64,000 nt of DNA from Burkholderiales bacterium (GTDB taxonomy: Bacteria > Pseudomonadota > Gammaproteobacteria > Burkholderiales > Burkholderiaceae_C). A program made the translations under genes and the position numbers. The DNA lies in NCBI GenBank assembly GCA_016213265.1, contig JACRBA010000148.1, positions 1-64,000 on the forward strand, read 5' to 3'. The notes below the pieces were generated by a model that searched no databases, was not told the DNA's origin, and saw only the letters and a program-made list of their open reading frames with translations. This document shows positions 32,714 to 39,641 of the stretch, piece after piece (the stretch's first letter is position 1; each line of letters opens with the position of its first letter).

Positions 32714-34039
32714 TTGGGCCATGAAGTGTGGGGGCTGCTCGGCCCGGCCAGCCTGTCGGGCCGGCGCCGCACGCGCACGCTCGGACTGGGCGCCGCGGTG
32801 CGCAGCTTCAATGACCTGGCCGTGCCTGGGCTGGGTAGTGTGTGGTTCGGCAAGCAGCTGGTCCTGGCCACGCTGGGCGTGGTGGTGGCGGAGTCGGCCC
32901 GACGCGCCGGCGCGAAGGTGTCCAACATCGAGGTGGCGAACGCAGTGGAAGCCCTCGCCTGCTGCCTGGCGTTCGACGACCGGCAGTGGGCGCCCGACCG
33001 CCGCCTCAGGGGGCGCACCAAGCTGCCCGAACCAGGCGAGGACCTGAGCTTCCGCCGGGTACGCCGTACCAGCTTCTACGTGACCCAGACGCTGCGCATG
33101 GGCACCGTGCAGGCGCTGCCGGCCCTCGGCCTGGTGACGGCCCGCGGCACACGATTCAACGCCTTCGAATCCTCGGTCAACGGGTGCGCCGTGCTCGAAG
33201 TGGCCCTGGCACCCTACCGGCCGTTCAGGCGCAGTGTGCAGGCCCACCTTGTGGACTGGGTGTTGGGCAGGACGGGAGCCGCCTCCATGCAGACCGCGAC
33301 GCTGCGCGAGGCGCTGTCCCCCTGCGCCGCCCTCAGCCCGGACAGCCGGGCCTTGCTGCGCGCGCGGCTGGAGCTGGGTAGCGACCGGGAGCGTTCCGCC
33401 GACACTTTGCGCCGCCGCCAGGCGCTGGCCTGGGTGGGCTCACTGCACGGCGCCGCGCCTGGAATGTCGGCTTCGGACTTCCCGAAGCCGCCGGCCCTCG
33501 ACGGCGACCACTGGGACGACATCCGGGCGGGTGCGCTCTTCTTCACGCTGATGGATGCCGCCGTGGCGGTGCTGGACGCCGTCGAAGCGCACATGGGTCC
33601 GGACCGCCGCCAGATGCCAGTGGCCGACGCCGCACGTGATTTGGAATCGGCCGCTGCGCCCTCCGGCCCTGTGCGGATCCTTGCGCTGCGACAGGCCGCC
33701 CGGCGGTTCTTGGACGCGCAGCACCGTCAGCCTCAGGCGGTCGAATTCGCCCGGCAGTGCGCGGCGGACTGCACGGATGACCTGCTGCGTGCCCTGGTCG
33801 GCCGCGACGGCACGGTCCTCAGGCTGCTTGGCCAGGACATTGGCCGCGGCCCGGCATACCGCGGCGCCACGCCCGCGGCCGGCCCGCCGGAGGAGGACGA
33901 CGCCGACCCGCGCGGCGACGACATCCCCATCCCCCACGGCGTGTCCCATCGGCTGCGCAACCTGTACCGCCTGCACCTGGACCTCCAAGGCGACCTCGAC
34001 GCCTGGCTGGAGCGGCAGGCAGAAAGGTCCGCGCCATGA
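32714..34039 (+). CDS. Cassette protein A: hypothetical protein, no recognised family
   Basis: Probable TTG start at 32714 with GGGGGAGG 5-6 nt upstream; 441 aa; ATGA overlap with next gene. The ORF track extends upstream to 32639. Confidence 0.75.
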   Translation: MGHEVWGLLGPASLSGRRRTRTLGLGAAVRSFNDLAVPGLGSVWFGKQLVLATLGVVVAESARRAGAKVSNIEVANAVEALACCLAFDDRQWAPDRRLRGRTKLPEPGEDLSFRRVRRTSFYVTQTLRMGTVQALPALGLVTARGTRFNAFESSVNGCAVLEVALAPYRPFRRSVQAHLVDWVLGRTGAASMQTATLREALSPCAALSPDSRALLRARLELGSDRERSADTLRRRQALAWVGSLHGAAPGMSASDFPKPPALDGDHWDDIRAGALFFTLMDAAVAVLDAVEAHMGPDRRQMPVADAARDLESAAAPSGPVRILALRQAARRFLDAQHRQPQAVEFARQCAADCTDDLLRALVGRDGTVLRLLGQDIGRGPAYRGATPAAGPPEEDDADPRGDDIPIPHGVSHRLRNLYRLHLDLQGDLDAWLERQAERSAP

Positions 34040-36048
34040 ACGGCCTGCACGCACGAGCAGGCGCGCTGTCACTCGCCCAGCACTTCGACGCGCCGGAGGG
34101 ATTCGTCGGCTGCTTCGGCTGGGTCTGCGGCTTTTCCGCCGACAGCCCCTTCATCAGCGAAGTGGCGGAGCGCTTCACCACCTGGACGCCGGACCAGCGT
34201 GCGAGCCAGGGCCGCGTGGCGCTGGCGCTGTTCCTCGACCCGTCGTGCCCGACGCTTTCCATGGTGAATCACCCAGGCGTATTGCACCTGCCGGTGGCCC
34301 ACCCGGGCAGCCGGACCTGTCGACTGGTGCACGCCAAGGTGGCCTTGCTGGGCTTCAGGCACGCCGAGCGACCCGACGCCTGGTGCGTCCGCCTCCTCGT
34401 GTCGACGGGCAACTGGACGCGCCAGACGGTGGAGGACAGCCTGGACTTGGCTTGGCGCCTCGATGTCTTCAGCGACGACATCGCGGCGAGGAAGGACGCA
34501 TCCCGGGCCGCATGCGCCGACATCGTGGCCGCGCATGGTCTGATGAATGCGCTCCGGCAGGGCCTGGGTGGCGTGTTCGATGTGCGGCTCCTGCGGGCCA
34601 CACCCCAGCTGGCGGAGGACCAGGCGCTGGTCGACCGCTGGATCAGCCAGTGCGCACGGCACGCCGCCGGCAAGCCGCGGTTCTTCGACAGCCGCAGCCG
34701 CTCCCTGCTGGCCCAATTGCCGGGCAAGATCCGTAGTGCGGACGACGGCCGGGCGGTGGCTCGCAACTACATCGCCATGGGCTCGGGCTTCTACGAGCCG
34801 GCCCCGGCGTCAGGCGGTGCGCCACGCGTGCCCATGGCGATTCTCGAGACCCTGCGTGGGGAAGGGCTCCTGACGCTCAGTTGCGAGACCGACCTGTTCG
34901 TCAACCGTCTGGCCTGTCAGGGCGTGGCCATGTCGGTGCGGGCCCTGGACGAACGCGGCGTGACAGTACGGCCGGCGGCGGCACCTAGCCTGCTGTTCGG
35001 CGAAGACAACGCCCGCACGCTACACGCCAAGTTCCTTTTCAGCGCCCACCAGTCGGCCCGTTCCGCCCGGTGCAGCAGCGCCTGGGTCTATCTCGGCTCC
35101 GGCAACCTCACTGAGCCAGGGTTCACCCGGCGAATGGGGCCGGACGGCAACTTGGAGGCAGGCGTCGTCTTCTGCGCAGACGGCCTCGTGTGGCAGGGCG
35201 GCGCGAAGGTCGATGCATCGCGGGTGGTCAGCCACCTGCTGCCCATCCAGCGCGACGAGGCCGTGTCGCCTGACAGCGCCGCACTCACCGCCGGGCCGCC
35301 GTACGAGCGCCCCCCAGTGACTCACCTGGCGCCGCCCATCGCCTGGCTGGTCTGGACCGAGACCGACGACTGCCCGAGCCGGCTCGTCTCGCCCGAACCG
35401 CTGCCGGCGCAAGCCACGCAATTCCAGGTGCTGGGCCCCGACGAACAGCCCTGCCCGGCGGCCGATGGCGGCTTCGTCTGGCACGCCCCCATGCCGCGCC
35501 AGGTGCGCTGCCGCTGGACGGAGGATGGCCAGGTCCACAACGCCGAGATCCCGGTGGTGGACGCCCACGGACGGATTGCCGCCATGCCCCTGCAGCCACT
35601 CGGCATCGAGGAGGCATGGTGGCAGCTGGCGGACTTTCCCCAGCCGCCGCCGGCGGACGCCGAGGACGCCGACGGTGACGGGGCCGCCGATCCGCCGCCC
35701 CAGGGCGCCATCGACACCCGTCCGGCCGCCCCGGGCAGCTACCCGGTCCGCCAGCTGATGGAACTGGTCGAACAGATCGCCGCCAGGCAGACAGCCTTGG
35801 ACGAGCGCGACTGGGCGGCCTGGTGCAGACGCATGGAGCAGACCTTGACCCGCGCCAAGGACAGCCCGGCCGTCGCGTACTTCCGGCACCTCGGCGCGGC
35901 CGGGCTGAACCCGCTGTCCCCCCTGCGCCAAGCACCGTTCCGCCCCGGGTACGCGGAGACCGCGGACACGGCGGCGGGCCTGCTGTACGAACAGGTGCTC
36001 GACCGCATCGAAGCCCAATGGGGTGTGGCCGGGATGCCCGGCGTGTGA
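34036..36048 (+). CDS. Cassette protein B: phospholipase D/tyrosyl-DNA phosphodiesterase-like protein
   Basis: Two H-x-K...(S/T)GN motifs: LVHAKVALLGF...VRLLVSTGNWTRQTVEDSLDL and TLHAKFLFSAH...AWVYLGSGNLTEPGF. Confidence 0.75.
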   Translation: MNGLHARAGALSLAQHFDAPEGFVGCFGWVCGFSADSPFISEVAERFTTWTPDQRASQGRVALALFLDPSCPTLSMVNHPGVLHLPVAHPGSRTCRLVHAKVALLGFRHAERPDAWCVRLLVSTGNWTRQTVEDSLDLAWRLDVFSDDIAARKDASRAACADIVAAHGLMNALRQGLGGVFDVRLLRATPQLAEDQALVDRWISQCARHAAGKPRFFDSRSRSLLAQLPGKIRSADDGRAVARNYIAMGSGFYEPAPASGGAPRVPMAILETLRGEGLLTLSCETDLFVNRLACQGVAMSVRALDERGVTVRPAAAPSLLFGEDNARTLHAKFLFSAHQSARSARCSSAWVYLGSGNLTEPGFTRRMGPDGNLEAGVVFCADGLVWQGGAKVDASRVVSHLLPIQRDEAVSPDSAALTAGPPYERPPVTHLAPPIAWLVWTETDDCPSRLVSPEPLPAQATQFQVLGPDEQPCPAADGGFVWHAPMPRQVRCRWTEDGQVHNAEIPVVDAHGRIAAMPLQPLGIEEAWWQLADFPQPPPADAEDADGDGAADPPPQGAIDTRPAAPGSYPVRQLMELVEQIAARQTALDERDWAAWCRRMEQTLTRAKDSPAVAYFRHLGAAGLNPLSPLRQAPFRPGYAETADTAAGLLYEQVLDRIEAQWGVAGMPGV

Positions 36049-38803: not shown

Positions 38804-39641
38804 GCAGACGATTGTGGCGGCGAGCGCGATGCCGCGTATCCGTCTGGTGCGCATGCGGCTGCAGGTGCCCGCTTCGGCCTCCGGTGCGGCCCATCCCGGC
38901 GATCCGGCCGAGACGCTGAACCTAGCCGCTGGCTGGTTCGACGTCGAACCACTGCCGGGCGAGGGGCGGGGCGACGGGCCGGACGGGGGTCCACTCGCCG
39001 GGATGGCCCGCGCCGAGTTCCTGCCCTGCGACCCGGTGGGGGCGGCGCAGGTGCTGGCGGGGCGGCTGGGCGACGTCCAGTGGCACGCCGCGGTCGCGCT
39101 CGACAGCTTGCCGGGTGCCGACGCGCAGGCCTGGGTCGACGCCCTGCGCCAGGCGGGTCGCTGCGAGCTGCTGCTGGGACTGGCCCGCCGTCCCGGCGAC
39201 TTCGCGGGTCTGAAAGGCATCGATGGCTTCGTCCTCGCCGGCATGCACGGCCTGCGGCGCGGCCAGCACCTGTGGCACATGCTGGCCGGCCTGTTGGCGC
39301 CGACGCAACTCATCGGCGTCGATGCGCGCGACGTTGCGCAAGTGCTGGGCGCCGCACTTCGTCCGTCGGACTTCGTCCCCGCGGTGTGGCTGCCGCAGGA
39401 GCAGCGGCTGTTGCTGGACGGGTCGGGGCGCGAGGCACTGTCACGCGCGGACGGCGTCTTCGCGTCACCGATCGGGCAGGAGTGGCCTGCTGCACAGGTG
39501 CGGAGCGTCGTGCGGCAGCTCCGGGAGCACCTTCCGCCAGGCGGGGCGGATCTTGCAGTGTGCGCCCCCCAGGGCCTGTTCCCGCACGACGAGCCGTCGT
39601 CGCTGGCGATCCCGTTCGGTCTGTTGGTGCGCGGCGGGTAA
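38775..39641 (+). CDS. Cassette protein D: hypothetical protein, no recognised family
   Basis: 288-aa ORF overlapping helicase 3' end by 29 nt in another frame; same strand; ends about 50 nt before leuS. Confidence 0.7.

Follow-up and report, generated by a model that had tools for sequence, protein, structure and literature searches.

Among the described systems that resemble the present locus, Azaca consists of ZacA (a DUF6361 protein), ZacB and ZacC. Like the locus reported here, it comprises three overlapping genes on the same strand, which encode an unknown protein of ~400 aa, a PLD protein of ~620 aa and an SF2 helicase; it is likewise carried on plasmids and islands, and on alphaproteobacterial plasmids a PD-(D/E)XK and UvrD gene pair lies upstream. 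PDC-M27, a PADLOC candidate made up of genes A, B and C, follows the same unknown-PLD-helicase plan and is also similar in having an ADP-ribosylglycohydrolase and an HTH regulator upstream. DISARM combines a PLD nuclease (DrmC) with an SNF2-type helicase (DrmD). Hachiman (HamAB) is another nuclease-helicase pair, whose helicase acts as a sensor of DNA damage and releases the nuclease (PMC12278908); its description, however, gives a different nuclease and two genes only (PMC12278908). The BREX-related HKD and Snf2 systems (PMC12839542) were set aside, as the accessible part of their account describes a methyltransferase and an HKD domain fused to the helicase.

In the window, that is, the whole stretch of 64,000 nucleotides that was analysed, genes A, B and C (Table 1) show the gene order unknown-PLD-helicase of Azaca. 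We suggest, with a probability of about three in four, that the three genes A-B-C form a nuclease-helicase system with a presumed defence activity against phages/plasmids, a sibling to both Azaca and PDC-M27 but with a first subunit of its own. The observations behind the proposal are the order of the genes, their co-evolution and intact motifs, the accessory distribution, the island context and the Azaca-like layout. The curated libraries PADLOC, Pfam and NCBIfam (2023-2026) hold no name for A-B-C, RefSeq labels A and B as hypothetical, and a literature text search of partial coverage returned no mention of DUF6361, PDC-M27 or the protein accession numbers. A-B-C could already be listed in recent catalogues of defence genes compiled by machine learning. 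The preliminary description had assumed a system of an unnamed type; the PADLOC search agreed in that the cassette matched no named system, but the layout has precedents in ZacABC of Azaca and in the candidate PDC-M27.

Table 1. Genes of the cassette and of its insertion site, in window positions
Feature	Position	Strand	Description
exbD	32047..32487	+	ORF; left boundary of the insertion site; leuS neighbour in congeners
gene A	32714..34039	+	441 aa, mostly alpha-helical, no family; first subunit of the cassette
gene B	34036..36048	+	670 aa, predicted PLD/TDP1-like nuclease with two HxK...GN half-sites
gene C	36056..38803	+	915 aa, SNF2/RapA-like SF2 helicase/translocase; Pfam ResIII, Helicase_C, SNF2
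gene D	38775..39641	+	288 aa, orphan ORF, coding-like; outside the conserved unit
leuS	39695..42349	+	right boundary of the insertion site

The coordinates given earlier for four tightly packed genes on one strand between exbD and leuS were reproduced, with an A/B overlap of 4 nt (ATGA), a B/C gap of 7 nt and a C/D overlap of 29 nt. Gene A starts with TTG, and the Shine-Dalgarno sequence GGGGGAGG is found upstream. All four ORFs have a high-low-high GC content by codon position. Their GC3 is 0.85-0.88, whereas the other genes of the window average 0.93 and leuS has 0.97; this difference fits acquisition without proving it.

The three genes were found together, in the same order, in 83 loci, and in 78 of these they are contiguous on one strand. 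Of the remaining five, three have frameshift or IS splits (B is split by an insertion sequence in L017, and A is split in L119 and L087), L092 is a truncated contig, and in L016 A and B are fused in frame. The interrupted B of L017 (5954-10263) lies on a Novosphingobium plasmid, and its insertion sequence has an IS21-like transposase. The fusion, a single frame of 1004 aa on a Paracoccus versutus plasmid (L016, 7633-10647), may reflect joint action of A and B or else a sequencing frameshift. Comparison of the A, B and C distance matrices gave r of 0.91-0.94, a correlation that none of 1000 permutations reached. The homologues of B came from plasmids, one further genome among 300 of the order, 80 loci in species genomes and one viral contig; among the 300 genomes, a full-length match was present in the source genome and one other. 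The hosts of A-B-C belong to the Pseudomonadota (alpha-, beta-, gamma- and zetaproteobacteria), Planctomycetota, Acidobacteriota and Desulfobacterota. A-B-C is present on conjugative plasmids and one viral contig, and no match was obtained in the phage genomes or E. coli genomes searched. A-B-C shows the accessory, island-borne and mobile distribution expected of an anti-phage defence system.

The reference loci of the two related systems were fetched and verified with PADLOC, giving 428/555/1107 bits for ZacA/ZacB/ZacC of Azaca and 581/747/1256 bits for A/B/C of PDC-M27. Against the same models, A/B/C of the window scored 0/29/47 bits for Azaca and 0/0/64 bits for PDC-M27; A has no match to PDC-M27A and B none to the PDC-M27B model, which leaves the locus outside PDC-M27. 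Since A is unmatched and the scores of B and C lie far below membership, A-B-C is neither Azaca nor PDC-M27 and represents a third system with this layout.

It could be argued that A-B-C is instead a divergent Azaca, in which A, B and C correspond to ZacA, ZacB and ZacC. The order and architecture are alike, the upstream gene pair is common to both, and the UvrD ahead of Azaca is homologous to that ahead of A-B-C (E about 1e-30). Moreover, all 44 members of the B family match the ZacB model, and no other, at E<=0.01, with an hhalign probability of 34-91% depending on the setup, N-terminal region included, so that homology of B to ZacB is possible; the match, however, covers the second active-site motif only (29 vs 555 bits). 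The hhalign probability between C and ZacC reached 97-98%, but with 47 vs 1107 bits this homology is at the superfamily level only, and C prefers the PDC-M27C helicase (86 bits), the nearest among those compared, to ZacC. Neither a PADLOC ZacA nor a Pfam DUF6361 match was found in A or its 44 relatives. The possibility that A is a remote ZacA was rejected, as the hhalign probabilities, first with 3 and later with 9 ZacA sequences, were 0.1-0.2% and did not exceed those of unrelated controls. We therefore regard a divergent Azaca as rather unlikely. The ZacA model built from 3 sequences had a pLDDT of 34.7, so A and ZacA may still share a fold.

Gene A has no reliable match in Pfam, PADLOC, NCBIfam or PHROG, and the same four libraries returned nothing reliable for D, in agreement with the initial observation that both fall outside known families. 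The alignment of A contained 45 members. The AlphaFold2 model, made from 44 sequences with the plasmid rows left out, had a pLDDT of 90.3 and a pTM of 0.89; helices predominate in it, together with a small beta hairpin. Foldseek comparison with the PDB and viral models gave nothing at E <= 0.001. The model suggests that A likely has a new fold, as compared with PDB and viral models only. We tentatively propose that A founds a new mostly alpha-helical fold and may serve as the recognition/licensing subunit of an immune system of the nuclease-helicase type that had not been described before. If this is true, Azaca, PDC-M27 and A-B-C would belong to one modular class, composed of an interchangeable first subunit, a PLD nuclease, an SNF2 motor and a swappable AddAB-like pair.

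B carries the half-sites HxK...STGN (H99, K101, N126) and HxK...GSGN (H330, K332, N357), and both are kept in 44/44 relatives. Two HxK...N half-sites in one chain are characteristic of the PLD nuclease superfamily and liken B to the TDP1/PLD phosphodiesterases, but the similarity is sub-threshold. B alone gave a weak PLDc_2 match (0.012), and its 44-member profile found no match among PDB sequences; PLDc_2 was matched by 27/44 relatives and Tyr-DNA_phospho (tyrosyl-DNA phosphodiesterase family) by 8/44. The motifs GMGKT, DEAH, (T/S)ATP and QQxGRxDR were identified in C and vary little or not at all among its relatives; motifs I, II and VI are present in 39/39 of them. These SF2 motifs, with a profile match to RapA of 1.5e-14, place C among the SNF2 helicases; however, it has the motor motifs alone in common with RapA (47 bits vs a 576-bit cut-off). 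The earlier reading of B as a PLD/TDP1-like protein with two HxK...(S/T)GN motifs and of C as a RapA/SNF2-type protein with intact SF2 motifs was therefore confirmed. Because the motifs are retained throughout both families, selection appears to keep the enzymes active. The separation from DISARM also held, as no DrmB match and no methyltransferase were found in the cassette and the matches of C to DrmA and DrmD were weak and at the superfamily level (75 bits for DrmD, against a cut-off of 610 bits). The source genome encodes a second PLD protein (G000:C12:33526-34044, L029), with a frame of ~1106 aa and a helicase domain, that resembles the PLD_Helicase defence family.

Genes near A-B-C in other genomes match the PADLOC models of Druantia, Lamassu, Avs, Hhe, DRT (reverse transcriptase), IetA and WYL. 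The control set consisted of the genes of the window and of the exbD-leuS region, and as some of these also match PADLOC models, raw counts overstate the enrichment, which is to be read qualitatively. At least one of the control matches is to a housekeeping paralogue: in the window, a topoisomerase III gene (2327-5017, minus strand) matched the PADLOC DpdF model at 1.2e-113, a likely false-positive trap. The recurrent partners of A-B-C were a PD-(D/E)XK nuclease in 26/83 loci and a UvrD helicase in 27/83, while WYL genes and two-domain-ATPase genes were each near A-B-C in 13/83. The AddAB-like PD-(D/E)XK and UvrD pair was observed directly upstream of both Azaca (L157, L159-L161) and A-B-C (L013-L015, L095-L118), which makes it look like an accessory module that both systems can exchange; in L014, the pair is preceded by BrxL. 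A WYL regulator with a two-domain AAA ATPase, whose C-terminal part is IetA-like, was observed upstream of A-B-C in L012 (4665-7763), L042, L067, L071, L073, L084 and L156. The partner genes differ between lineages, and the window has neither the PD-(D/E)XK and UvrD pair nor the WYL and ATPase pair.

PLD and SNF2 pairs can also serve repair. A-B-C might accordingly be a DNA repair/end-processing module, in which a TDP1-like phosphodiesterase and an SNF2 motor clear protein-DNA adducts; the TDP1-family Pfam match in 8/44 B proteins, the role of RapA as a cellular recycling motor and the AddAB-like neighbours would agree with such a function. However, A-B-C is sporadic, mobile, plasmid-borne and located in islands with defence genes, and it has its plan and neighbours in common with Azaca, which makes a repair module quite improbable.

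In the defence system that we propose, C would be an SNF2-type ATP-driven translocase that loads on invading or damaged double-stranded DNA and, as sensor and motor, gives the signal, by analogy with the Hachiman helicase as DNA-damage sensor (PMC12278908). B is predicted to be a pseudo-dimeric PLD-fold nuclease, the two HxK...N half-sites of which would form one active site, and it would cut DNA once C licenses it. A may be a structural or targeting adaptor joining B and C. In many hosts, the upstream AddAB-like PD-(D/E)XK and UvrD pair, or the WYL and two-domain ATPase pair, might add to or control A-B-C. We infer complex formation and a division of labour among A, B and C. As the cassette in the window is without a methyltransferase, self-avoidance would have to come from DNA ends, damage, the replication state or A. 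With a defined three-gene unit, more than 80 homologues, mutable catalytic residues and a well-modelled subunit A as a resource, the discrimination of self from non-self by standalone PLD and SNF2 systems without a methyltransferase becomes directly testable. If the proposal is true, A-B-C would be a widespread, sequence-defined addition to the nuclease-helicase defences, and Azaca would form a single branch of a wider modular class, whose members keep the PLD nuclease, SNF2 motor and AddAB-like partners but differ in the first subunit, which is swapped.

The preliminary description had defined the cassette by four genes. A accompanies B-C everywhere, but D lies beside B-C nowhere else: in the search for co-occurrence across genomes, A-B-C recurred in more than 80 loci and D in none. 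Relatives of D were absent from every other A-B-C locus (phmmer, 88 loci), and no homologues were found in 40 relatives, plasmids or viral contigs. D was thus ruled out as a conserved component and dropped from the system, and the conserved unit is A-B-C, three genes, not A-B-C-D. Judging from homology, D is an orphan passenger of the host genome, which may have arrived together with A-B-C. D overlaps C, looks coding (GC by codon position 0.82/0.54/0.85) and resembles A-C in GC3 (0.85 vs the mean of 0.93 of other genes), as would be expected if the functional unit were A-B-C-D with D as a strain-specific regulator or specificity factor; given the lack of D in all the sets above, we consider this very unlikely. 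Hence the accessory nature, the defence-island context and the predicted roles of B and C in the proposed standalone nuclease-helicase system still stand, but its four-gene definition does not.

A to D lie between the end of exbB/exbD (32487) and the start of leuS (39695). The spacing between exbD and leuS is only about 30-100 nt in several congeners, and in others short unrelated genes are found between them. The cassette is an insertion at a variable site, the exbD-leuS junction, as had been suspected. In the genus survey, A-B-C was present in 4/16 genomes, the other copies being at other sites. The region is flanked by conserved genes in the source genome, but that it is an ordinary housekeeping locus is contradicted by the data and has a negligible probability, since several congeners have an almost empty junction and the universal conservation that was named at the outset as speaking against a defence system was not seen, with 12/16 congeners lacking the cassette. 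One congener (G590) carries two copies of A-B-C. At the exbD-leuS junction (window 32487-39695; L145-L150), unrelated inserts of about 0.7-3 kb were observed in some species.
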